This document shows positions 10,556 through 40,478 of a DNA stretch of 64,000 nucleotides, piece by piece (positions within the stretch are counted from its first letter, which is position 1; each line of letters starts with the position of its first letter). Location: contig NZ_KB891217.1 in the NCBI RefSeq assembly GCF_000373365.1, positions 1-64,000 on the forward strand, in the 5' to 3' direction. This DNA is from Parafrankia discariae (GTDB lineage Bacteria; Actinomycetota; Actinomycetes; Frankiales; Frankiaceae). The notes under the pieces were generated by a model. That model saw nothing but the letters and a program-made list of their open reading frames with translations. It searched no databases and was not told the origin of the DNA. A program made the position numbers and the translations under genes.

Positions 10556-10615
10556 GCACGCTGATCAACGCACGCACTGCACGTTGATCAACGCACGCCG
10601 CGCACGCTGATCAAC
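10556..10615. repeat. 23-bp tandem direct repeats at the 3' end of the translocase gene (clt-like)
   Basis: The unit GCACG(C/T)TGATCAACGCACG begins at 10556, 10579 and 10602 (the third copy is partial and overlaps the last codons of the translocase gene). Each unit contains the palindrome TTGATCAA or CTGATCAA. In Streptomyces plasmids the TraB-binding transfer locus (clt) consists of short direct repeats next to traB; the position here fits but the sequence is different. Confidence 0.6.
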
Positions 10616-12695
10616 TAGCCGGGGCGGTGCGGTACGTTCCGTCCCCGTTGTCGGTCACCACGCCTTCCCGGGCCAGACGGTCCAACAGCCGGCTCATCGT
10701 CGACCGGTGCCGGGCCGCGTGGTCCGGCAACGCCTCCGCCAGGTCCGTCGGACCGAACCGAGTCCCCGCCGGCCAGGCGGCGAACAGCTCCCGCACCTCG
10801 GCCTCGACCTGCTCGGCCGACGCGCGGGGCCGCGGGGGCGGCGGGGCGAGCGAGAACGACGCCCCGCCCGGCACCTGGTCGTCCACGCCAGGCTGGATGT
10901 CGGGGTCCTCGTCGGGCTCCCCCTTGTAGTAGGCGGCCCGGTCGAACTGCTCGTCGGCCTCGACCGTGCCGGCGGCCGGCTCGGCGGGGTCGTCGTCGCT
11001 GGTGGTCACGGTGACCACGGTCGTCGGCATAGCGGGTTTCGTCTCCTCTGTGGTGTCGGTGGGTGTGCTGGCGGTTGCGGCTTCTGCGGTGACGCCGCCC
11101 TTCGGCCAGATCGGCCGGTTCGTCCACACGTCACCCAGTGCCTCCTTGTAGAAGTCGGGCATCTCGACGTGGATGTAGTGGGGGCGGGCCCGCCGGTGCA
11201 GGTCGATCGGCTCGACGCAGAGTGTCCGGGCAGGCGTGAGCGCACGCGCGTCGTCGATGTTCGGTAGCCGGGCGTACAGCCGGCCAGGGTGGCGGTTACC
11301 CCACGCGGCCGGGTCGGCGCCCTGCTCGACCAGGTCCTCCAACAGGTAGCCGGCGTCGCCATCCGCGCAACCGAACTGGAGCGCGGGGCCGATCTCCGCG
11401 CGGGCGCTGGTAGGCATCCCGTCGTAGGTCCACCGCTGCCCGGAGACCTTCACGTTGAGCCCCCAGGATCGGCCCTGCCGCAACAGGTCCACGATGATCC
11501 GCTTGTGCTCGGCGGGGAGGGCGGTTGCCTCCTCGACGATGAGGAGGACCGCGGGGATTCCCCGGCCTGGCGCCCAGTCCTTGTACCCGCGGTCGCCGAG
11601 GTAGTTGCCCATCGCCGGGCCCAGGCGGTCACGGATAGCGGTCAGCAGGTCGAGCGCACGCGCCTCGTCGGTGACGAACAGGGTCAGCAAGTCCGCGACC
11701 GGGCCGAACGTCTGCTTCTGCTTGACCGTGTCAATGACGATCACCAGACCTTCGCGGCGGCATAGCCAGTCCGCCGCCACGATCAGAGCCGGGCCCGACT
11801 TCCCCGCACCGTTCTTCCCGCCAATGCCGACGTGCTGCGCGTTCTGCCCCGGCCGGTCGGCTGTCTGCGCGACGGCGGTAAGGGTCAGCTCCAGTGGCTC
11901 CCCGTCCTCGTAGATCCCGAGGAGGTGCGGGTCAGTGGGCAGACCTCCGATGTGGGTGGGCCCCTCCCACCGGGTGACGACGTTCAGAAGGTCCCGGCGC
12001 ACCAGGGTGACCAGCGCCTTGCTCGCGTCCTCACTGTCCGGGGCGATCCGTACCCCGGTCGGCGGAACCCCCGCCAGCGCGGCGATCGTGTCCCGCGCCC
12101 GGACCAGGTCGCCGACGGTCTGCCCCTCGGCGAGCTCCACCGCGGCGATACCCCGGTCCTCGCCGACCTCCAGGGTGCGCATCGTTGATCCCTCCAGCCC
12201 GGCCTTCCCGGCCTTGGTCGCCCACCAGCCGCGCAGGTGGTCGACCGGGCCGCCGGTGTCCCCGGTCGCGTGGACGCCGAGGCGGATGTTCTGCGCAAAG
12301 CAGCCGGCGAAAGCTCCGAGTACCCACACGTATATGGCGGGCCGGGTGATGCCGGTGATGGTCGCCGCGGTGACCCAGGCCAGCGGGGCAAACATCATCG
12401 CCGTGGTCAGGGCCCGCGCGAACGCCGCCCGGGTGTGGGAGAGCTTCCAGGTCAGGGCGGTCAGACCGGTGGTGGTCAGGGTCATCGCGCAGACCGCCCA
12501 GGGCAGGGTGGTCGGCGCGGACCACAGCAGGTGGCAGAGGGCGGCGAGGCCGGGCAGGGCGGCTGCCGCGATCCACGGGGGGAGGTGGCGGATCCACCGG
12601 CCCGCGATGTCTGAGGTGGCAGCGTGGGCACCGTGGTGCGCGCCGCGGATGGCGTCCTTTCCGGCACCTGCGACTGCGAGTGCTTTCCCTGCCAT
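10611..12695 (-). CDS. TraB/FtsK-type DNA translocase
   Basis: A 694-residue membrane-anchored motor. Residues about 40-135 hold four hydrophobic segments. The ATPase core has a Walker A GKNGAGKS (293-300), a Walker B hydrophobic run ending in Glu-Glu (AVLLIVEEA, 382-390) and a GRSWGLNVKVSGQRW stretch of the FtsK/HerA type. An acidic linker and a C-terminal winged-helix-like domain (about 620-690, STMSRLLDRLAREGVV) follow, as in TraB and FtsK, where that domain recognises DNA repeats. In actinobacterial plasmids and integrative elements TraB alone moves double-stranded DNA between mycelia. It starts at an ATG with a GAAGGAGA site. Alternatives are a chromosome-partition FtsK or a packaging motor, which is less likely because a separate terminase is present. 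Confidence 0.82.
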   Translation of the reverse strand: MAGKALAVAGAGKDAIRGAHHGAHAATSDIAGRWIRHLPPWIAAAALPGLAALCHLLWSAPTTLPWAVCAMTLTTTGLTALTWKLSHTRAAFARALTTAMMFAPLAWVTAATITGITRPAIYVWVLGAFAGCFAQNIRLGVHATGDTGGPVDHLRGWWATKAGKAGLEGSTMRTLEVGEDRGIAAVELAEGQTVGDLVRARDTIAALAGVPPTGVRIAPDSEDASKALVTLVRRDLLNVVTRWEGPTHIGGLPTDPHLLGIYEDGEPLELTLTAVAQTADRPGQNAQHVGIGGKNGAGKSGPALIVAADWLCRREGLVIVIDTVKQKQTFGPVADLLTLFVTDEARALDLLTAIRDRLGPAMGNYLGDRGYKDWAPGRGIPAVLLIVEEATALPAEHKRIIVDLLRQGRSWGLNVKVSGQRWTYDGMPTSARAEIGPALQFGCADGDAGYLLEDLVEQGADPAAWGNRHPGRLYARLPNIDDARALTPARTLCVEPIDLHRRARPHYIHVEMPDFYKEALGDVWTNRPIWPKGGVTAEAATASTPTDTTEETKPAMPTTVVTVTTSDDDPAEPAAGTVEADEQFDRAAYYKGEPDEDPDIQPGVDDQVPGGASFSLAPPPPRPRASAEQVEAEVRELFAAWPAGTRFGPTDLAEALPDHAARHRSTMSRLLDRLAREGVVTDNGDGTYRTAPAS

Positions 12696-12740
12696 GACGG
12701 TGGTTCTCCTTCGGGCGTAGGTGGGGGCGGCCAGGTGGGG

Positions 12741-13094
12741 TTAGAACTTGACGGTCTTGGCGGGGGTCTTGGCGCCGCCGCGGGCCTCGAACGGGTCGCC
12801 GAAGTTCACCTGGAACAGGATTCCGGACTTGACCGCATCCACGGTGATCGTTTCGAGTCCGCCGACCATGCGCCGCAGCGGGGCGGTGGTCCGCCTGGCG
12901 AGCATCCGGGCGTGCGGCTTCGGCCAGCCGAAGATCGTGTCAGCGGTTGCCAGCGCGGCGCGGATCGCCTCTGAGCCGATCGCGGTCTCTCGGGTGAGGT
13001 CCCGGGAGAGGCCCGCGAGCGTGGAGCAGTACTCCCGGATTCCGTCCGCTTCCCACAGGTCGATGTTGGCGAGTTCGTCGATACGGCTGCCCAT
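12741..13094 (-). CDS. Hypothetical protein upstream of the translocase
   Basis: A 117-residue protein starting at an ATG at 13094 with an AAGGAG site. The N-terminus is acidic and helical (GSRIDELANIDLWEADGIREY); the rest is mixed, with a basic C-terminus. It is cotranscribed with the translocase (46 bp apart). The function is unknown, and a transfer accessory role is only suggested by position. Confidence 0.62.
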   Translation of the reverse strand: MGSRIDELANIDLWEADGIREYCSTLAGLSRDLTRETAIGSEAIRAALATADTIFGWPKPHARMLARRTTAPLRRMVGGLETITVDAVKSGILFQVNFGDPFEARGGAKTPAKTVKF

Positions 13095-13111
13095 GATCAC
13101 TCCTTGGTTGG

Positions 13112-13435
13112 TCAGTGGTGGTCGGGGTCGGTCCACGCGGCGAGGACAGTCGCGCCGCGCTCGGCACCGAGGTCGGCGAGCCGGGCGAGGACAGCGCCCA
13201 GGCGCGCGGACCCGGCGAGGACGAGAACGAGGAGGACACCCGGCGCGCAGGCGGTCCGGAGGGGGCCGACGCGGTGGGCGTACCTACGGACGCGCCGGTA
13301 CCAGGTACGGGGGTGGCTGCCGAACGCTGCGGGGCGCAGGCAGCAGGGCCCGGTGATGAGCCGGTCGTCGGCATCGGGGAGGACACCGTGAACGAGCCCG
13401 AGGACGATGCCGAGGAGGAGCAGGGACAGGTTCAT
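13112..13435 (-). CDS. Membrane protein of the transfer region
   Basis: A 107-residue protein with a hydrophobic N-terminus (MNLSLLLLGIVLGLVHG), an Arg-rich middle (TWYRRVRRYAHR) and a second hydrophobic segment (ACAPGVLLVLVLAGSARLG). The start overlaps the upstream stop (ATGA). It probably spans the membrane twice and sits in the translocase operon. No family was recognised. Confidence 0.62.
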   Translation of the reverse strand: MNLSLLLLGIVLGLVHGVLPDADDRLITGPCCLRPAAFGSHPRTWYRRVRRYAHRVGPLRTACAPGVLLVLVLAGSARLGAVLARLADLGAERGATVLAAWTDPDHH

Positions 13436-22770: not shown

Positions 22771-23658
22771 TCACGCTGTCGCCGCGTTCGGACCCGGAAG
22801 GGGCTCGCCCTGCGCAGCCGCCCACTCGCGGAGAGCGTTGATCTGACGCGCACGCTCGAGGTCCGGCACCCCGCCGTCCGCCACCGGCTCAGGAATCGGG
22901 CCGGCCAGCCCCCGCCACCCACCCACCGGGCGCACCTCGCCGCGCGCCGCCGGCCGGGCCCGGCCCAGCAGCGCACGGAGTTCGGCGACCGCGGCGCGCT
23001 TCTCCTCGGTGTCAAGCCGCACCGGCGGCCCGGCCGGCAGCGCCTTCCGGCCATCGGCCGGGCGGGGCTTCTCGTCGGCGGCTCGCGGCAACGCCCGTGC
23101 CTCCCACGCCGGACCCGTCTCGGCGAGCTGCCGGCGCGCCGAGTCGATCCCGCCCGGCCGGCTCAGCACCTGTTGCCGGGACCGGTCGGCCGCCTGGGTG
23201 TACTCCGCGCGCCAGGCCGCGCGGACCACGCCCTCGGGGGCGGTCTCCATCCACGACAGGCCCAGGGTGTCAGCGACCCGGCGGGTGAGGGGGTGCACCT
23301 TCGGCTCGCGCCCCTCGCCGTCCTCGCGGTCGGTGTCGTGCGGCCGCGGGCTGCCCGTCGGGCCCCGCCAGGCCAGCCAGCGGCGGATCTGCCGGTAAGC
23401 GGCGTCGCTCGTCGGGGGCAGCGCGTCCCCCACCGTCGCGACGTACTCGACGATGTGGCCCGGGGTGATGCGCGGCCCGGTGCTCCGGTAGTGCGCCATC
23501 ACGGCCTCGTCCGCGAGGTGCAGGGGGATGTCGGCGAGGAGCCGCGCCCACAGCGCGGCGGTGTGCGGCCGGCCGTCCCCGGGGTCGGGCGTGACCGTGA
23601 TCCTCGCGTCGAGTTCGGTGATGATCGCGAGGAGGGCGACGGTCTCGGGGAGGTTCAC
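22771..23658 (-). CDS. Replication-associated protein (helicase-loader-like candidate)
   Basis: A 295-residue protein from a GTG overlapping the initiator stop (GTGA at 23658). The N-terminal domain (NLPETVALLAIITELDARITV ... WARLLADIPLHLADEAVMAHYRSTGPRITPGHIVEYV) matches the layout of actinophage proteins encoded just after an HTH replication protein, which may act as a helicase loader. A Trp-rich middle and a long basic, Pro-rich tail follow. No Walker motif is present. The role is inferred from coupling to the origin-bearing gene. Confidence 0.6.
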   Translation of the reverse strand: MNLPETVALLAIITELDARITVTPDPGDGRPHTAALWARLLADIPLHLADEAVMAHYRSTGPRITPGHIVEYVATVGDALPPTSDAAYRQIRRWLAWRGPTGSPRPHDTDREDGEGREPKVHPLTRRVADTLGLSWMETAPEGVVRAAWRAEYTQAADRSRQQVLSRPGGIDSARRQLAETGPAWEARALPRAADEKPRPADGRKALPAGPPVRLDTEEKRAAVAELRALLGRARPAARGEVRPVGGWRGLAGPIPEPVADGGVPDLERARQINALREWAAAQGEPLPGPNAATA

Positions 23659-24869
23659 GACGCCACCTCGCCGGTGATCACTGTGAACGGTCGGCGGACC
23701 GCGTGCGGATCGTCGAACGGGCCAGGCTGCCCCGACCAGTCCTGCCCGGCTGGCTGGGCGGCCACAGCCGATGGCCATAGCCCAAACGAATTGGGGCGGC
23801 CAGCGCCTTCGGTGGCCTGGCCAGCCGCCACCCGAGCGTTGTGCATCGCCGCGGTCTGCGCGAGCGCGTCGCGGTTCGCCTGCTGCCGGTCGACGTAGCC
23901 ACCGGAACGCGCCGAGCCGGGAGCCGGGGCGGTCGCGGCCTGGAGCGCATAGTCGGCGATCTTCTTCGGGCCGAAGCGGGGCTTCGCCCGGTACTCCGCG
24001 AGCCCGGCCCGGATGTGCTCGGCGGACGTTCCTCCATCGACGAGTTCACCGATGACGGCCAGTGTCTCCGCGATCACCCGCTTGGTGGGGCGGGCGGGCA
24101 GCATCTGGGCGAGGTGCTCATCGAGGAGGGCCTGTGAGACGGCGGCGTTCTCCCGGGCCTTGGGGCTGACCGGCGTGTCAGGCTGGCCCGGCCTGCCCTT
24201 GCGGGGTACTCGCGTACGTGCGCCTGCGCTCGCGCCCGTCTTGCTTCCCGTAGGGAAGCAAGTAGTTCTTGGTTCTGTTTTTGGTTTGGCTACCGTCGAG
24301 GGTAGGTCACGGGAACCGTCGAAGGTAGGCCGCTGCTCGTCCTGACCAACCGTCGAAGGTAGGCCGTCGAGGTCGACCAGCGCCGGCTGCACCGGCGCCG
24401 GGGGACCTTCGACGGTAGGCCGCTCCTCGGCAGGATCGCTGTCTGTCGAAGGGTTCTCCGTGCCAAGGGCGCGCCCGCCTGCGACGTCGCGGCCTACCTT
24501 CGACGGTCGGCCACCACGAGCTACCTTCGACGGTAGGTCAGCCGTGTCGGCGGCCGAACGCACCTGGTCCATGCACAGGTTCCACACCACCGGCCGGTGA
24601 CCCCCGGGGATGTGCTCGACCAGGCTCTGATCACCGCGCACGATCAGCCCGTCCGATTCCAGTAGGGCGAGGTACGCGCGGATCTTCGACACGTGCATGC
24701 CCAACGTCGCGGCCATCGTCGCCGCGGCCTGCCACGCCCCGCAGCCACGGCTGTCGGCGCGCTCGGCGAGTTCGAGCAGCACGAGCCGCGCGGAGTGCGC
24801 CGTCCGGCCCGGAGCCGACCGGCCAACCGGCGCGCTCCGGAGCGCCCACACCATCGCGTCGACACTCAC
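23655..24869 (-). CDS. Winged-helix replication initiator containing the origin
   Basis: A 404-residue protein from a GTG overlapping the upstream stop (GTGA at 24869). The N-terminal 100 residues are a winged helix (MVWALRSAPVGRSAPGRTAHS ... MAATLGMHVSKIRAYLALLESDGLIVRG) that is paralogous to the 133-residue gene upstream. The middle (about 115-215) is low-complexity, with repeated PSKV/PTVEG/PSTV/PTFDG motifs that are the translation of DNA iterons. The C-terminal part is helical (RPTKRVIAETLAVIGELVDGG ... FGPKKIADYALQA). The order (DNA-binding head, iteron-encoding middle, loader-binding tail) parallels lambda O, in which ori lies within the gene. No primase or polymerase motif is seen. 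Confidence 0.72.
   Translation of the reverse strand: MSVDAMVWALRSAPVGRSAPGRTAHSARLVLLELAERADSRGCGAWQAAATMAATLGMHVSKIRAYLALLESDGLIVRGDQSLVEHIPGGHRPVVWNLCMDQVRSAADTADLPSKVARGGRPSKVGRDVAGGRALGTENPSTDSDPAEERPTVEGPPAPVQPALVDLDGLPSTVGQDEQRPTFDGSRDLPSTVAKPKTEPRTTCFPTGSKTGASAGARTRVPRKGRPGQPDTPVSPKARENAAVSQALLDEHLAQMLPARPTKRVIAETLAVIGELVDGGTSAEHIRAGLAEYRAKPRFGPKKIADYALQAATAPAPGSARSGGYVDRQQANRDALAQTAAMHNARVAAGQATEGAGRPNSFGLWPSAVAAQPAGQDWSGQPGPFDDPHAVRRPFTVITGEVAS
24241..24536. other. Candidate replication origin: hairpin, T-rich tract and six iterons inside the initiator gene
   Basis: Six 16-bp near-palindromic iterons of the form CTACC-(G/T)TCGA-(A/C/G)GGTAG lie at 24290-24305, 24313-24328, 24347-24362, 24403-24418, 24494-24509 and 24521-24536; a degenerate copy sits near 24443. 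Immediately to one side is a 36-base tract (24255-24290) with 21 A/T bases in an otherwise very GC-rich context, overlapping a perfect hairpin TTGCTTCCC-GTA-GGGAAGCAA (24241-24261). Iterons next to an AT-rich unwinding element within the initiator gene are the classic lambdoid origin design. Confidence 0.72.
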
Positions 24870-25267
24870 TGCGCACCGGCTGTGCTGATGCCCATGCCCA
24901 GGTCCCACACGGACGGACGCCGGTTCGCCGGCAGATCCTCGACCAGCTTCTGATCGCCGGCCGAGATCAGGCCGGCGGCGCGGAGGTCCGCGAGGATGGT
25001 CCGCACCGCGCGGATCTTCAGCCCCAACGTCTCGGCGATCGCGCCGCCGGTGATGACGGCGCCGCGGCCGTTGGCGTCGGCGTGGTCGGCGAGCAGGGCG
25101 AGGACGCAGCGCGCGGACGGGTCGAGCTGCGCCGGGTGGCGCAGCGCCCAGCGCGTGGGGGTAGTGCCCGGCCGGGCGGCGCCGCCCGCCCGGCGGACGG
25201 TGTGGGTGGTGTAGCTCACCCCGCGCGGCGCGTGGCGCGTCTGCGTAGCCGAAGGCATGATTGCCAT
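24866..25267 (-). CDS. Winged-helix protein, paralogue of the initiator N-terminus
   Basis: A 133-residue protein starting at an ATG at 25267 with GGGAG upstream. RWALRHPAQLDPSARCVLALLADHADANGRGAVI ... ETLGLKIRAVRTILADLRAAGLI ... LVEDLPANRRPSVWDL aligns along its length with the first 100 residues of the next gene. It may bind the same iterons as an activator or competitor (copy control), or be a DNA-binding partner in initiation. Confidence 0.7.
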   Translation of the reverse strand: MAIMPSATQTRHAPRGVSYTTHTVRRAGGAARPGTTPTRWALRHPAQLDPSARCVLALLADHADANGRGAVITGGAIAETLGLKIRAVRTILADLRAAGLISAGDQKLVEDLPANRRPSVWDLGMGISTAGAQ

Positions 25268-29308: not shown

Positions 29309-29664
29309 CGCGCGCCCGCCAGAACCCGCGGCGCCCCGGTGGTCACAGGCAGCTCGATGCGGATCGGCGCCGCCGCGGCCAGGAGCGCCTGCACCTCGGG
29401 ACGCAGCGCGGCTGCGATGTCCGTGACCCACCTCAGATCGTCGTCGGGGAGGGCATCGCCCCAGGCGTGCACGGGGACCAGGTCGAACCAGGCATCGACC
29501 GCGGCGGCGCCTACGGGCTGCTCGTCCGCCTCCTCGTGGATCACGTCCAGAACTGCCCGGGGCCCCTCGCGGAGCGCCACGTACTCGTGTGCGTACGAGG
29601 TGTCTTCGAGCGATGCGAGACCGAGTCCGTGCAGGTGCTCGGTGTAGTCCTCGTTGTGCAACAT
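29305..29664 (-). CDS. Acidic hypothetical protein
   Basis: A 119-residue protein starting at an ATG at 29664 with AGGGAGA upstream. It is acidic and helical (HNEDYTEHLHGLGLASLEDTSYAHEYVALREG) with a Trp-containing middle (DAWFDLVPVHAWGDALPDDD). It is the first gene of a three-gene coupled operon. The role is unknown. Confidence 0.64.
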   Translation of the reverse strand: MLHNEDYTEHLHGLGLASLEDTSYAHEYVALREGPRAVLDVIHEEADEQPVGAAAVDAWFDLVPVHAWGDALPDDDLRWVTDIAAALRPEVQALLAAAAPIRIELPVTTGAPRVLAGAR

Positions 29665-29736
29665 GTCCTGTCTCCCTTGCGGTTCGCGGCGCTCTCCCTC
29701 GCCGCTGCGTAGGGAAACAGTACGGCGGCGTTGCGT

Positions 29737-29755
29737 CGTGTTGCATCTCATCGTT
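29737..29755. promoter_or_regulatory. GTTGC-rich motif in the promoter of the 29664 operon
   Basis: GTTGCGTCGTGTTGCATC, followed by a third GTTGC, contains the GTTGCAT half-site seen at 9451, 19583 and 25378, but not the full 21-bp arrangement. Confidence 0.35.
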
Positions 29756-29819
29756 GCGTGTCGCGGTAACCGCGCGTCACGATGGGGACGGGCGCGGCAA
29801 CCCGACCAGGGGGGAACCG

Positions 29820-30944
29820 TTGCCCGACTCGCAGGACAAACCAGCTCAGCCAGCCGACGCGGCCACGGGCCCGGCAGACCAGCCCGACAGCGCCAGCGCA
29901 CCCGTGACCGACGTCCAGATGCGCCGCGCTATCTTCACGCTGATCACCGTTGCGATCACGGCCCTCGTCGCGCTCACCACGTACCTCGGCCAGAACATCG
30001 CCGAGGGCCCCGGGCCCGACGCCCCCGCGCCGACGCCGACAACCAGCCCGACCAGCGCGCGACCACCCGCGACCTGGCTATCCGGCGTCTACCCCGAACC
30101 AGTCCAGAACGCTGCCAACGTCACCGCGTTCGGGACCTGGCGCGGAGACCCCACCGACATCGCGCTCACGTTCGTCACCCGCAACCAGGGCTGGCAACAC
30201 ATCGTCGGCAGCGAATCATTCATCTGGGGAAACTTCCGCGGCTGGCCCGGAAAACTCATCATCTCCGTACCACCCTGGCCCGAGAACACCGGCGGAACCT
30301 ACACAGCCTGCGCGCGCGGCGACTACGACACCCAATGGCGCACCTTCGGGACCACCCTGAAAACCCAGAACCGGGCCGGGTCCATAATCCGGATCGCGTG
30401 GGAAGCGAACGGGAACTGGTTCCAGTGGTCAGCGACCAACCCAGCCCTGTACAAAACCTGCTGGCAGCACATTGCAGCGGCGATCAAATCAACGGACTCC
30501 GCCGCGCAGATGGACTGGGCGATCAACGCCCACTACTCGCAGAACCCCCCGAGCCACAACCCGCTCGACCTCTACCCCGGTGACACAACGGTCGACATCG
30601 TCAGCATCGACGCCTACGACCACTACCCGCCGTCACCATCCGGTGTCGCCTTCGACACCCAGTGCAACGCCCAGGGTGGTGCCTGCTGGCTCGCCGCGTT
30701 CGCCCGCGGCCACAGCAAGCTGTTCGCCGTAGGGGAGTGGGGTGTCGTGTCCGGCCGGGGACCCGACGGCGGTGGAGATAACCCGCTCTACATCGAGAAG
30801 ATGCGCAAGCTATTCGCCGACAACGCTGACATCCTCGCCTACGAGGTGTATTTCTCCGACACCGACGAACGCAATGTCAAATCAGATATTTGGCGTGTCC
30901 CTCAGAACCCGCGCTCCGGCGCCGCGTACCGGGAGCTTTGGTGA
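29820..30944 (+). CDS. Membrane-anchored GH26-like glycoside hydrolase
   Basis: A 374-residue protein from a TTG at 29820 with AGGGGGGAA upstream. A charged N-terminus is followed by one hydrophobic segment (AIFTLITVAITALVALTTYL, about 37-56), a Pro/Thr linker and a TIM-barrel domain. The barrel shows a GH26-type acid/base Glu195 in RIAWEANGNWFQWSA, DAYDHYP (about 264-270) and a nucleophile candidate Glu306 in AVGEWGV. The GH26 family cuts beta-mannans and related glycans. The type II anchor would place the enzyme outside the membrane. Its barrel is clearly paralogous to the tail protein at 37876-39339. It precedes the lysis genes, suggesting a role in clearing wall or sheath glycans at release. 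Confidence 0.8.
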   Translation: MPDSQDKPAQPADAATGPADQPDSASAPVTDVQMRRAIFTLITVAITALVALTTYLGQNIAEGPGPDAPAPTPTTSPTSARPPATWLSGVYPEPVQNAANVTAFGTWRGDPTDIALTFVTRNQGWQHIVGSESFIWGNFRGWPGKLIISVPPWPENTGGTYTACARGDYDTQWRTFGTTLKTQNRAGSIIRIAWEANGNWFQWSATNPALYKTCWQHIAAAIKSTDSAAQMDWAINAHYSQNPPSHNPLDLYPGDTTVDIVSIDAYDHYPPSPSGVAFDTQCNAQGGACWLAAFARGHSKLFAVGEWGVVSGRGPDGGGDNPLYIEKMRKLFADNADILAYEVYFSDTDERNVKSDIWRVPQNPRSGAAYRELW

Positions 30945-35856: not shown

Positions 35857-35941
35857 ACCCAGCGGCGTGCCTTCCGCTCCCAGCCCCCGGCCGTTGCCAC
35901 CATCACCACACCCACACCCACACCCGACCGGAAAGGCACCG

Positions 35942-36517
35942 ATGACCAGCGGCGTCACCGTCGTCATCCCCACCATCCCGCCACGCGCCGGCCTGCTCGC
36001 CCGCGCCGTTGCCTCCGCCTCCGCGCAGACCCTGCCCCCCGACGCCCTGTCGGTCGCCGTCGACACCGACCGCCAAGGCGCGTGGGCGACCCGGCAACGC
36101 GCGCTCGACGCCGTCACCACCGAGTGGACGGCGTTCCTCGACGACGATGACGAGCTCGGCCCGCACCACATCGCGATCCTGCGCGAGCACGCGGAGAGCA
36201 GCGGCGCCGACTACCTGTACCCCTGGTTCGTCGTGGCCGGCGGCACCGACCCGCTCGCGCAGTACTTCGGCCAGCCGTGGGACGACGACGCCCCCCACCA
36301 GACAACGATCGTGACCCTGGTCCGCACCGAGCTCGCGAAGGCCGTCGGGTTCCGCGAGCCCGGAGACGGCACCGTCGAAGGACAGCGCGCCGGTGAGGAC
36401 TGGCTGTTCACCCTCGGGTGCATCAAAGCCGGAGCGAAGATCTACCACGTGCCGGAACGCACCTGGACGTGGCACCACCACGGGCGGAACACCAGCGGCC
36501 TCCCGGACCGCTGGTGA
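35942..36517 (+). CDS. GT2-family glycosyltransferase, first tandem copy
   Basis: A 191-residue compact GT-A protein from an ATG at 35942 with GGAAAGG upstream. VTVVIPTIPPRAGLLARAVASASAQT begins the Rossmann half; AFLDDDDELGPHH carries the metal-binding DxD; AGEDWLFTLGCIKAGAKIYHVPERTWTWHHHG provides the C-terminal Glu-Asp-Trp motif. About 60% of its positions match the next gene by eye. It may act on the same glycan with different donors. Confidence 0.84.
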   Translation: MTSGVTVVIPTIPPRAGLLARAVASASAQTLPPDALSVAVDTDRQGAWATRQRALDAVTTEWTAFLDDDDELGPHHIAILREHAESSGADYLYPWFVVAGGTDPLAQYFGQPWDDDAPHQTTIVTLVRTELAKAVGFREPGDGTVEGQRAGEDWLFTLGCIKAGAKIYHVPERTWTWHHHGRNTSGLPDRW

Positions 36518-37080
36518 AACGCGACGTCACCGCGATCATCCCGAGCATCCCCCCGCGAGCCGGGATGCTCGTCCGCGCCGTCGCGTCCGTCACCGCGCAG
36601 ACGGCACCACCGGCCGCCCTATCGATCGCCATCGACACCCAGCGGGAAGGCGCCCCGGCCACCCGGGACCGGGCGCTCCGTGCCGCCCGCACGACCTGGG
36701 TGGCCACCCTCGACGATGACGACGAGTGGATGCCGCAGCACCTCGAACGGCTCCTGGACTGCGCCGAGGAGACCGGCGCCGACTTCGTCTACAGCTGGTA
36801 CCAGCTCGAACCGCCCGGCCGGGACCCGCTGCCGCACTTCGGGAAACCGTTCGACCCGGCCAACCCGATCCTGACCACGATCGTCACCCTGGTCCGGACC
36901 GAGCTCGCGCAGCAGGTGGGCTACCTGAAGTGCACGCCCGACGAGGTGTTCATGCAGGAAGACTGGATGTTCGTCCTCGGCTGCGTCGCCGCCGGAGCGA
37001 AGATCGTGCACCTGCCGGAGCACACCTGGACCTGGCACCACCACGGCGGCAACACGTCCGGCCGGCCGGACCGCTGGTAG
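36514..37080 (+). CDS. GT2-family glycosyltransferase, second tandem copy
   Basis: A 188-residue protein from a GTG overlapping the previous stop (GTGA). It repeats the layout of its neighbour: VTAIIPSIPPRAGMLVRAVASVTAQT, ATLDDDDEWMPQH, then MQEDWMFVLGCVAAGAKIVHLPEHTWTWHHHG. The ends are almost identical (NTSGRPDRW in place of NTSGLPDRW), and the middle has diverged, where acceptor choice is expected. Probably a duplication followed by specialisation. Confidence 0.84.
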   Translation: MKRDVTAIIPSIPPRAGMLVRAVASVTAQTAPPAALSIAIDTQREGAPATRDRALRAARTTWVATLDDDDEWMPQHLERLLDCAEETGADFVYSWYQLEPPGRDPLPHFGKPFDPANPILTTIVTLVRTELAQQVGYLKCTPDEVFMQEDWMFVLGCVAAGAKIVHLPEHTWTWHHHGGNTSGRPDRW

Positions 37081-37875: not shown

Positions 37876-39339
37876 TCACGTCGGGACCCGCCACAGCTCC
37901 CGGTACTTCAAACTTGACTGCGGGTTACGTGAACCGAGCAAGTCGGACCAGACGTTGTTCGGGTCGACGTCGTTGAAGTATGACTCGGCGTGGACCAGAT
38001 TGATGCTCTTCAGGTGTTGCAGCCATTCGTAAACCCACTGAATAAACCCCGGATTATCGTGGCCGCCAAACGCCTGCTTATTTACCGCGTTGTTCAATCC
38101 CCACTCGCACAGAACAATCTTCTTGCCCTGCGCAAGCGCGAATGTTTCCCAGAACTTTGCCCGGCCAACATTGGTGGATTCGCGGGTGTTGACCGCGGCG
38201 TACCCGATCGCCTGCGGATAGTGGTCGTAAAGGTCGATGCCAATATAGTTGACGTAGGCGGGACCGGGCCAGGAGTTCCGTGCGTCCCCGCCAGAGGTTT
38301 GAGACGCCCCAGCGTTTACCGTCCATGCGAACTCCGCAGTCGGACGCGTCTCCCTTGTGAGGCTGACAATACGGCGATACGCCTGGATGAACGCAGTCGG
38401 GTTTACGGACGACCAGGGGAACCAGTTCCCGTTAAACTCAAACGCCAGGTTCGTGACCGGCTCCGGCATCCCCCGGGCAACAAAGGCATTCAACGTATCG
38501 CCCCAGCGCCGCCATTGCGAGTCGTACGCCCCACTGTTGATCGCATTTGCCTGCGCGCCGTTCGCCGCCGACCCGATCAGGTTCGGACCCAACGGCTGCC
38601 CGATCAACGGAACGAAATTTGTACGGGTCCAGTTGTTGACCACGTACGTCGGGCCGACTAGCTGGTCCCACCCACCTGTTCTCTGGCTGTATGTCAGACC
38701 GGATGTGGTCTGCCGCCCACGCCAGGTACCCCACTCGTCCACCGACTGCTGGGTGTACTGCGCCTGCCCACCCGGACGTGCCACACCCGACAGCCAGAAA
38801 CTGGGCGGCGGAGGCGGAGGAGGAGGCGGCGGATCAGGGTCGGGATCGGGGTCGGGGTTTCCCGGGCCCGGATCTGGTTCCTCAGGGTCCGGGTTCGGCG
38901 GGTCCGGCGGGTCCGGGTTCCCCGGATCAGGATCGGGATTGGGGTTCCCCGGGTCTGGATCTGGGGTCGGCGGCGGGTCCGGATCGGGCTCCGGCTCGGA
39001 AGGCAGCGGAGGAGGAGGCGAGTTCAGGCCCACCGCCGGACCGATGATCAAATAATCCTCGCCCAGCGGGGTGACATACACCCGATCACCCGGCGCGGGG
39101 GTGTACCCGCTGAGATATGGCATCTGGCGCGGGTGCAGCACAGACGACCCATCCAGAGTGATCCGCGGCAGGCCGAGTTCAGCCGGGTTGTACTCCAGAT
39201 CAATCGTCGCCACACGCGGATACAGGGTGTTATCAGGATGAGCACGGATCGTGCGGTGCTCCAGAACCCGCAACCGGGCCAGCGCGTCTCGGATCTGCGC
39301 TGCTGCCTGCTCCTCCAACGGCGGCCGGTACTGGCTCAC
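37876..39339 (-). CDS. Tail protein with GH26-like glycoside hydrolase domain
   Basis: A 487-residue protein from a GTG overlapping the upstream stop (GTGA at 39339). Residues 1-105 are a virion-attachment domain (helix EEQAAAQIRDALARLRVLE, then strands ending YVTPLGEDYLIIG). Residues about 108-180 are a very long Pro/Asp linker, and 181-487 a GH26-like barrel with acid/base Glu301 (AFEFNGNWFPWS), IDLYDHYP and nucleophile candidate Glu412 (LCEWGLNN). Paralogous to the anchored enzyme at 29820-30944, including the C-terminal KYRELW. It is probably a tail-tip depolymerase acting on a host surface glycan during adsorption. Confidence 0.82.
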   Translation of the reverse strand: MSQYRPPLEEQAAAQIRDALARLRVLEHRTIRAHPDNTLYPRVATIDLEYNPAELGLPRITLDGSSVLHPRQMPYLSGYTPAPGDRVYVTPLGEDYLIIGPAVGLNSPPPPLPSEPEPDPDPPPTPDPDPGNPNPDPDPGNPDPPDPPNPDPEEPDPGPGNPDPDPDPDPPPPPPPPPPSFWLSGVARPGGQAQYTQQSVDEWGTWRGRQTTSGLTYSQRTGGWDQLVGPTYVVNNWTRTNFVPLIGQPLGPNLIGSAANGAQANAINSGAYDSQWRRWGDTLNAFVARGMPEPVTNLAFEFNGNWFPWSSVNPTAFIQAYRRIVSLTRETRPTAEFAWTVNAGASQTSGGDARNSWPGPAYVNYIGIDLYDHYPQAIGYAAVNTRESTNVGRAKFWETFALAQGKKIVLCEWGLNNAVNKQAFGGHDNPGFIQWVYEWLQHLKSINLVHAESYFNDVDPNNVWSDLLGSRNPQSSLKYRELWRVPT

Positions 39340-40478
39340 GAATCGTCCTCGACTTCGCCGAGGTGCAACTTCGTTGTCTCCTCGCGGCCCTCGCCCGGAG
39401 GCGTCACCGTCCAGCCGATAATCCGAACCCGTGTCGCCAGACCCGGCTGCCCGGTCTCCGGGTCCTCCGGATGCAGGGGCGAGCTCGCGACCAGCCACGC
39501 CCATGATCCCAACGGGATGTCCTGCACCCGCGGATACACCGGCCCGGGAACCGTCACCGTCGGCACGGTGACGGTCCGAGCCCGACGCCGCTGCATGGTG
39601 TCAGCGAAAGTATCGACTTGCGACTGGTATTGGACAATGCCGCCGGGGAACTGCCCGGAATCCTCAAGGACCGGGAACCCGGCCGCGATGTCGACGAAGT
39701 CACGGCCTCGCGCGGAGTCCGACACCCAGCTCATCTGCATGCCGTCCGTCGATGACGATGTGGCCGTTGCGCGGAAAGAATTCACGCTGTCCGAGCCGAC
39801 CCGCGGGAACGAGTAGTCGACGACGTTCCCGGGAAACTGCAACACGATCGGCGTTGTCTCGGCGGACAGACCAAGCTGAGGCCGACCGAGCCGGAGAAAC
39901 AATGCGGACATGTGCTCGTCGCTGAATCCTGGCTCGAAGGTGAACTCAAAGTTCTCGCTGCTGGCCAGACCCTGGAGGACGTCAAGAATTTTCCGGTTCT
40001 CGGCGCCCACGTAGGTCGTGCTCCGCGTGGCACCGCTCATCGTCTGAGGCAAGACCAGGCCGGCAATGTTCTTACCGGTTCCGGTCGTTCCCCGGGTGAC
40101 GAGTCCTCGGGCGATGTCGAAGAGATCTATGCTGGTGAACTGGAGATCCGCGCGGATCTCCCGCTTCCCGAATAGGCTTTCGATCGAGCTGGCCCGAATC
40201 GGCAGCGAATAATCCAGGATCGAGCTGTGAGGCCAATCCCAGACGATCCCTGCCCAGATCGGTGCGCCGTCCTGCCCGACCCACAGCATGGTCCGGCGCG
40301 GTTCCAAGGCATCGAGGTAGGCCCGGTTCTGCGTCGCACTGGCCCGCAGATCGAGCGTGGCCGTCAGGTCCCCGGACGCGCACAACCGGCGTGAGAATGA
40401 ATTGCAGTCGAGCGGCAGCCAGTCCGCCAGCACCGCGCCGGTTCGGACGTGCGTCGCCCAGTACCTGTATTCGGCCAT
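39336..40478 (-). CDS. Minor tail protein (Gp37-like)
   Basis: A 380-residue protein resembling the siphophage Gp37/ReqiPepy6-type minor tail protein: an N-terminal beta domain (RYWATHVRTGAVLADWLPLDCNSFSRRLCASGD) with TMLWVGQDGAPIWAGIVWDWPHS, a helical middle (DLFDIARGLVTRG) and a C-terminal beta-sandwich. It lies between the tail-tip proteins and the GH26 tail enzyme and overlaps the latter by 4 bases. It presumably forms the baseplate hub or shaft. Confidence 0.78.
   Translation of the reverse strand: MAEYRYWATHVRTGAVLADWLPLDCNSFSRRLCASGDLTATLDLRASATQNRAYLDALEPRRTMLWVGQDGAPIWAGIVWDWPHSSILDYSLPIRASSIESLFGKREIRADLQFTSIDLFDIARGLVTRGTTGTGKNIAGLVLPQTMSGATRSTTYVGAENRKILDVLQGLASSENFEFTFEPGFSDEHMSALFLRLGRPQLGLSAETTPIVLQFPGNVVDYSFPRVGSDSVNSFRATATSSSTDGMQMSWVSDSARGRDFVDIAAGFPVLEDSGQFPGGIVQYQSQVDTFADTMQRRRARTVTVPTVTVPGPVYPRVQDIPLGSWAWLVASSPLHPEDPETGQPGLATRVRIIGWTVTPPGEGREETTKLHLGEVEDDS

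Follow-up and report, generated by a model that had tools for sequence, protein, structure and literature searches.

A putative theta-type replication origin within the initiator gene of a TraB-bearing, phage-like element of Parafrankia discariae

The DNA analysed here, referred to below as the window, comprises bases 1-64000 of a 69,514-bp contig (C116) from the 7.89-Mb draft genome of Parafrankia discariae. Three consecutive genes near its 24-kb position encode a stand-alone winged-helix (wHTH) protein, P0002, a replication initiator, P0001, and a protein found in the position of a helicase loader, P0003 (Table 1). The P0002 gene overlaps the start of P0001 by 4 bp and the start of P0003 overlaps the P0001 stop. 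Six near-palindromes of the form CTACC-N-TCGA-N-GGTAG are located at 24290-24536, inside the P0001 gene, where they occupy codons 112-194, ~330-580 bases into the reading frame. All six of the 16-bp iterons that the initial annotation had proposed for the initiator gene were recovered in place. An A-rich tract and a perfect hairpin follow them on the sense strand.

Table 1. Features of the window, with one related element for comparison (positions are those of the window unless another locus is named)
Feature	Position	Strand	Remarks
P0002, 133-aa stand-alone winged-helix protein, paralogue of the P0001 head	24866..25267	-	HTH_36, phrog_1032
P0001, 404-aa replication initiator, GTG start at 24869, holds the putative origin	23655..24869	-	phrog_1032, HTH_36
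P0001 wHTH domain, residues 25-76, likely iteron binder	24642..24797	-	HTH_36 stretch
Iteron 1, CTACCGTCGAAGGTAG	24521..24536	-	frame 0 (LPSKVA)
Iteron 2, CGACCGTCGAAGGTAG	24494..24509	-	frame 0 (RPSKVG)
Iteron 3, CTACCGTCGAAGGTCC	24403..24418	-	frame 1 (PTVEGP)
Iteron 4, CTACCTTCGACGGTTG	24347..24362	-	frame 0 (LPSTVG)
Iteron 5, CTACCTTCGACGGTTC	24313..24328	-	frame 1 (PTFDGS)
Iteron 6, CTACCCTCGACGGTAG	24290..24305	-	frame 0 (LPSTVA)
Putative unwinding element, A-rich sense strand	24263..24289	-	A 0.59, T 0.04
Perfect hairpin, 10-bp arms 24240-24249 / 24253-24262, 3-base loop	24240..24262	.	
P0001 C-terminal region, residues 217-319, common to the G020 initiator	23913..24221	-	27% identity
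P0003, 296 aa, candidate helicase loader from position only	22771..23661	-	phrog_10563, 3.6e-60
TraB-like translocase	10.6-12.7 kb		
The same TraB-like translocase (694 aa) with its weak TraA-like neighbour (4.7e-4)	10611-13136	-	
GntR-type regulator	14.6-15.4 kb		
Phage tape-measure and portal genes, weak terminase match	44-63 kb		
G020 element, initiator followed by P0003 homologue	3440-5181 of L179 (G020 C221)		

With up to 3 mismatches allowed, the six iterons are the sole matches to the 16-mer in the 64 kb (0, 2, 1, 2, 1 and 0 mismatches at 24290, 24313, 24347, 24403, 24494 and 24521, respectively). Their number by itself is weak evidence, because shuffles of the whole window give a mean of 2.4 matches and reach six in 2 of 100 cases; the evidence lies in the clustering and the exactness of the copies. 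The 15-base core has 6 exact sites in the entire 7.89-Mb genome, all of them in the array, and only three sites outside the array when 1 mismatch is permitted. Synonymous recoding of the gene with the protein held fixed yielded six 12-base cores in 0/5000 trials (mean 0.15, maximum 3), as did shuffling of the gene's own codons (0/5000), and the two perfect 16-mers alone were matched in 1/5000 codon-level shuffles. A motif-agnostic test, which counts how often any 14-mer recurs within 280 bp with no more than 2 mismatches, gave 6 copies for the window, a count reached by none of 300 shuffles. Four of the iterons are read in frame 0 (LPSKV, RPSKV, LPSTV, LPSTV) and two in frame 1 (PTVEG, PTFDG), so that the repeated PST(V)/PTFDG-type peptides attributed to them at the outset are indeed found, as PSK/PST-V and PTVEG/PTFDG. 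Iterons 1, 4 and 6 use CTA, the codon for 3.6% of leucines in 18 open reading frames of the window, and the spacing along the array is irregular (27, 91, 56, 34, 23). Since the repeats run through two reading frames and were never regenerated in 5000 synonymous recodings, the constraint acts on the DNA and not on the peptide; the plainest indication that the DNA itself is kept is its being read in two frames.

Directly after the last iteron, on the sense strand, lies CCAAACCAAAAACAGAACCAAGAACTA, made up of 59% A and 4% T, whereas A/T accounts for 29% of the gene as a whole. The 36-mer from 24257 contains 22 A/T, more than 99.98% of the 36-mers in 1-37 kb, and the tract overlaps the second least stable 36-bp place within the same interval. 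The T-rich tract initially described beside the iterons is real, at 22 instead of 21 A/T of 36. The hairpin is also present, with arms of 10 bp instead of 9, and is equalled in 2/40 synonymous shuffles; no consistent hairpin follows the tract in 25 initiators, and we rejected it as a conserved part of the origin.

P0001 matches phrog_1032 (replication initiation protein) at 1.6e-14 over residues 1-115, phrog_391 (O-like) at 4.7e-5 and Pfam HTH_36 at 26.1 bits (cut-off 25). The last is its sole Pfam match; Phage_rep_O (PF04492), which the lambda O control matches at 5.7e-36, gave no match to P0001 at E <= 1. By these profile comparisons P0001 is classed as an HTH_36-type phage initiator (phrog_1032) and not as a member of Phage_rep_O. 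P0001 occurs at 100% identity on a 63,946-bp viral contig in IMG/VR. No homologue covering 80% of the protein was found outside this element in plasmid or phage collections, scans of a genome-contig collection gave no relative and those of a viral-contig collection only the same element, and a PDB sequence search returned nothing useful. P0002 belongs to the same family as the P0001 head (HTH_36 at 29.1 bits, cut-off 25; phrog_1032 at 6.2e-10), in agreement with the separately coded upstream wHTH paralogue already proposed; its best match among the open reading frames of the loci compared is the wHTH of the initiator from genome G009 (43.6%). In Gordonia phage VanLee (L049), RepA-like initiators are annotated for two neighbouring genes, and locus L041 has a lone wHTH frame; because of these two cases, the pairing of a lone wHTH with an initiator may recur. 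P0003 matches a family of unknown function, phrog_10563, and is rare, being present in 1/296 genomes of the phylum, the window's own. It had no match in the phage collection and no recognised loader homology among Pfam, PHROG and NCBIfam profiles or in a PDB sequence search, where its sole match was a dipeptidase (E 0.075). An AlphaFold single-sequence model of P0003 (pLDDT 43) was unusable.

A protein search of 35 genomes of the family found relatives of P0001 only in the window's genome, in G009 and in G019, a genome of the same genus; in these 2 of the 34 other genomes the matches were partial. Iterons occur at the same place in the gene in both relatives, namely six copies of the palindrome ACCTGTCGTCCACGACAGGT in G019 (identified by eye) and five copies of GAACGGGGTGACAC in G009. 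The initiator of G020, another genome of the same genus, carries five copies of CTCAACCGGAAGAT exactly 22 bp apart, with frames rotating through all three, and is directly followed by a P0003 homologue (36%, 5e-14). The C-terminus of this initiator aligns with that of P0001 (27% over 107 aligned columns, E 6e-4 in a single comparison); its N-terminus gave no meaningful BLASTP match to that of P0001, and the protein has no HTH_36 match. All 4 of the Frankiaceae initiators examined, the window included, therefore have in-gene iterons, each with a sequence of its own. The expectation that homologues would share the iterons holds for their position in the gene and fails for their sequence, so that what is conserved is the architecture only. 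Because G020 keeps the C-terminus and the P0003-like gene while the N-terminus and the iterons differ, the sequences suggest that wHTH and iterons may travel together, as may the C-terminus and the next gene. Such module travel is known from lambdoid phages.

The same motif-agnostic test was applied to 24 initiators from phages and prophages, including those of the window, lambda and P335, and to 28 control genes picked by the analyst from the same genomes; L037 (a near-copy of L036), L042 (the same element as L016) and L040 (frame unresolved) were left out, and G020 was added after this main survey. An earlier, looser score (14-mers, 3 mismatches, whole gene) had been replaced by the clustered one because it separated initiators and controls poorly. 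At least three clustered copies were found in 19/24 initiators, window and lambda included, compared with 7/28 controls; when, in addition, at most 3/300 synonymous shuffles were allowed to reach the count, 7/24 initiators (window included) and 0/28 controls remained. Lambda O passes (3 copies, 1/300 shuffles), L036, Kuleana and P335 are matched by 14-22/300, TurkishDelight is at chance (222/300), and Leona, VanLee, Bolt007, Toulouse and the short L041 have 1-2 copies each, Leona having 2 clustered copies by the strict test. A second set, not selected for repeats, came from the 13/396 genomes of the phylum with a phrog_1032 match, of which 11, left out of the main survey, were scored afterwards besides the window (L027), L029 being cut by a contig end and omitted. 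Ten of these 11 have at least three copies, and in 8 of the ten at most 2/200 shuffles reach the count.

Many initiator genes contain a second repeat downstream of the iterons, consisting of GAACCGTCC units every 11-13 bp with shifting frames, as in RTVLEPSLNRPSEPS. RAACC occurs at least three times in 48 bp in 11/24 initiators and 0/28 controls, and at least twice in 17/24 and 3/28, respectively. For 6 of the 11 carriers the count is reached by at most 2/500 shuffles; these are four Arthrobacter phages and one metagenomic relative, which are closely related, and one Pseudomonas phage. In the set not selected for repeats, 5/11 have at least three RAACC, a count made without shuffle comparison. 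As many of the phages counted are related to one another, none of these counts represents independent events. A scan for GAACCRTCC-n-GAACCRTCC-n-GAACC, with gaps of 1-4, returned 25 viral and 95 genome stretches, of which 80 genome stretches were examined; the hit fell within a reading frame that matched a wHTH profile derived from 13 initiators (E <= 0.01) in 18/25 viral and 10/80 genome stretches. Hosts include Amycolatopsis, Corynebacterium, Nocardia, Jiangella, Halomonas and a Rhodobacteraceae MAG, and many of the other pattern matches are proline-rich coding repeats. The 28 loci (among L057-L157) with GAACCRTCC at 11-13 bp pitch in wHTH initiator frames are spread over Actinobacteria, Gammaproteobacteria and Alphaproteobacteria, and 20/28 have GAACC copies in more than one frame.

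Removal of duplicates left 25 such loci, six of them Arthrobacter-type relatives. Every one (25/25) has at least 3 repeat copies in the 170 bp upstream, 22/25 score higher than at least 95% of segments drawn at random from their own locus, and in 20/25 the distance from the end of the last upstream copy to the first GAACC is 8-16 bases. Copy number alone is not discriminating, because at least 3 copies are also seen in 30 of the 75 loci outside such frames (two further ones were omitted as too short); the pitch does discriminate, two or more gaps of 21-24 bp being present in 18/25 loci inside compared with 5/75 outside. In the window, the candidate GAACC repeat amounts to two relaxed RAACC units in the A-rich tract, 12 bp apart (24283-24287 and 24271-24275); 38/500 shuffles equal that, and the repeat is at most degenerate here. 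It is tempting to speculate that HTH_36 phage initiator genes across phyla share a two-part linker origin, in which element-specific iterons of ~22-bp pitch, matched to the local wHTH, would be followed 8-16 bp on by a largely shared, frame-shifting GAACCRTCC/RAACC repeat of 11-13 bp pitch, which a conserved partner would recognise in double- or single-stranded form. The window would then be a diverged member, with iterons and wHTH swapped and the C-terminal/loader module kept, in a TraB-bearing element. We give this general scheme an even chance of being correct.

The GC skew of the surrounding DNA does not favour an origin. In place of the GC-skew minimum anticipated near 24.3 kb, the cumulative skew reaches its maximum at 22.6 kb and stays near the top through 24.3-24.5 kb. 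The contig of the relative G003 begins close to dnaA; its right arm shows an excess of G in 7/8 sampled stretches and its left arm an excess of C in 8/8, and skew of the same sign surrounds dnaA in G000. A bidirectional origin should thus show the reverse of the sign seen at 24 kb. Within 1-37 kb the skew mostly tracks divergent genes, coding strands being mostly C-rich on both sides. Its opposite polarity rules out GC skew as support for the origin and argues, if weakly, against the origin being used in a single, fixed bidirectional mode.

The origin candidate shares its contig with genes of two kinds, a TraB-like translocase and phage structural genes. The former matches NCBIfam plasmid_TraB (NF041214) at 330 bits, below the cut-off of 800, and has the Walker A motif GKNGAGKS; it gave no match to Pfam FtsK at E <= 1 and none in the phage collection. 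A hybrid, either a conjugative phage-plasmid or an ICE-prophage, is possible. The Pfam scan covered 20 proteins of contig C116; the PF00589 profile found no integrase on this perhaps incomplete contig, and the contig ends show no exact overlap indicative of a circular form (16-2000 bases tested). The sequence GACCCGGA, which we take to be a TraB-recognition repeat motif, is found 19 times in the window, including three tandem copies near 54 kb and 0 within the iteron array. A PPK2 gene and a change of skew at 66.5-69.5 kb of the contig (L014) suggest a right-hand boundary of the element at around 66 kb. Elsewhere in the window are two glycosyl hydrolase family 26-like proteins, at 29589-30944 (+) and 37876-39504 (-), with an amidase/glycosyltransferase region between them; at 35867-37080, adjacent frames contain the similar stretches VTVVIPTIPPRAG and VTAIIPSIPPRAG, apparently a duplicated gene.

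We consider it likely that this stretch serves a TraB-bearing, phage-like element as a theta-type origin of replication located inside a gene. The observations comprise the repeats and the constraint on their DNA, the tract of low stability, the family to which the initiator belongs, the order of the genes and the recurrence of the layout with other iterons. From there we infer binding, melting, loading, direction and firing in the cell. The wHTH of P0001, perhaps with P0002, would bind the six iterons, which lie in the stretch that encodes the linker of P0001 itself; the resulting wrapping would promote melting of the adjoining A-rich tract, and the C-terminal half of P0001 together with P0003 might recruit the replicative helicase. 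By analogy, which is partly supported, the layout of wHTH, iterons, low-stability tract, C-terminal region and overlapping gene at the helicase-loader position may work like that of lambda O or SPP1 gp38. Against this stand the polarity of the skew, the irregular spacing as compared with a ~22-bp pitch, the degenerate RAACC, the missing match to Phage_rep_O, the lack of recognised loader homology in P0003 and the failure of the searches to return any close P0001 homologue outside this element.

Alternatively, the array may be an operator at which P0001 or P0002 acts as repressor of the operon, or a parS-like partition site, with the origin elsewhere. Near-palindromes of 16 bp would suit a dimeric repressor or a ParB-like protein, two wHTH proteins are encoded alongside, and the irregular spacing also speaks for such a role. 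However, the repeats lie about 330-580 bases into a gene and not ahead of the operon, iterons of other sequence take the same position in homologues as well as in lambda O, where they are the origin, and an unstable tract follows the array directly; we regard this explanation as unlikely. The window might also hold the relic of an origin in a degraded prophage, its array out of use, a reading that would fit the missing PF00589 match on the contig, the irregular spacing and the distance of the relatives. A relic is nevertheless unlikely to retain 12-base cores across two frames, and the initiator frame is open over 404 codons with all six cores intact, which makes decay quite unlikely.

Selection on the protein, acting on a repetitive disordered linker or following a recent duplication, could in principle generate similar DNA with no function of its own. 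Indeed, proline and glycine abound in the linker, which is prone to repeats, and PSTV-like peptides explain part of the DNA similarity. Yet the same DNA specifies unrelated peptides in the two frames (PST/PSK-V and PTFDG/PTVEG), synonymous recoding never regains the array, and the G020 iterons rotate through all three frames. This last explanation is very improbable.

A rule that locates origins in genes annotated 'helix-turn-helix' would provide many testable origins; to our knowledge, few origins of actinobacterial phages or prophages have been mapped. It would also offer replicons from which vectors might be built for Frankia and other hosts that are hard to manipulate. The second, shared repeat raises the question of what recognises GAACCRTCC after the element-specific iterons. 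A DNA code overlapping the initiator linker in several frames is moreover a clean case of dual coding. Leona gp45, an Arthrobacter phage homologue, matches 389/50,697 phage records, lactococcal P335-type replication proteins among them, and relatives of P0001 and Leona gp45 in Arthrobacter, Gordonia and Mycobacterium phages are annotated as replication initiation proteins or only as helix-turn-helix. The claim that the set is previously undescribed for an actinobacterial element was thus too strong, given these annotations and a repA origin already suggested in the accessible text of PMC7157519. A full-text search, in which few subscription journals are covered, returned no description of iterons or GAACC repeats inside such initiator genes in the portions of text it exposes, and searches with raw 9-mers and peptides gave none about phage origins among the matches listed.

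Among known systems, actinobacterial integrative and conjugative elements (AICEs) may resemble the window in their TraB-type translocase, the plasmid_TraB match of the window being below cut-off, and differ from it by the HTH_36-type initiator and the phage structural genes found here. As far as the accessible text of the AICE survey goes, these elements replicate through RepSA, RepAM or Prim-Pol, and a search for other families, Phage_rep_O included, added one Rep_2 case (PMC3218068). Given these three described types, finding an O-type origin alongside TraB would be unusual, provided that the entire stretch belongs to a single element. In the mycobacteriophage RepA-type prophages Miko and Jeeves, an origin in or just upstream of repA has been suggested and likened to lambda, and the accessible part of that work reports no repeated motifs between the tail genes and parS-L (PMC7157519). 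The likeness is that of an initiator-dependent origin in or beside its own gene, kinship of RepA with P0001 not being implied. Known relatives are the HTH_36-type initiators (phrog_1032, phrog_270) of the Arthrobacter phages Leona and LittleTokyo, Bifidobacterium phage Bbif-1 and lactococcal P335 (orf7), which have a related wHTH and in-gene repeats that, where present, begin from about nt 280-360. Unlike the window, they display other iteron sequences, mostly at 22-24 bp spacing, and several have GAACCRTCC; the RusA gene adjoins the initiator in Leona and LittleTokyo, is two genes on in P335 and lies 5 kb away in the window.

SPP1 and lambda are the models to which the proposed origin is best compared. 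In SPP1, oriL lies within gene 38 with the loader gene next to it, and a second origin, oriR, is described in the accessible text (PMC6316719); the window shares with gp38/gp39 a probable origin inside the initiator gene and a gene in loader position after it, and a PDB sequence search detected no relationship between P0003 and SPP1 G39P. For lambda, the accessible text of PMC5043065 records that iterons bind O dimers and that the A+T-rich tract has a strand asymmetry. The initial comparison with lambda O is sound for the layout and not for the protein family, as lambda O matches PF04492 and P0001 does not, and P0003 has no profile match to the lambda P family. The four annotated iterons of lambda are 18 bp long and 20-24 bp apart, compared with six of 16 bp at irregular distances here. 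In both, nonetheless, an initiator with an N-terminal DNA-binding domain contains iterons and an A-rich tract within its own gene, the sense strand of the tract is rich in A and poor in T, and a partner gene overlaps downstream.
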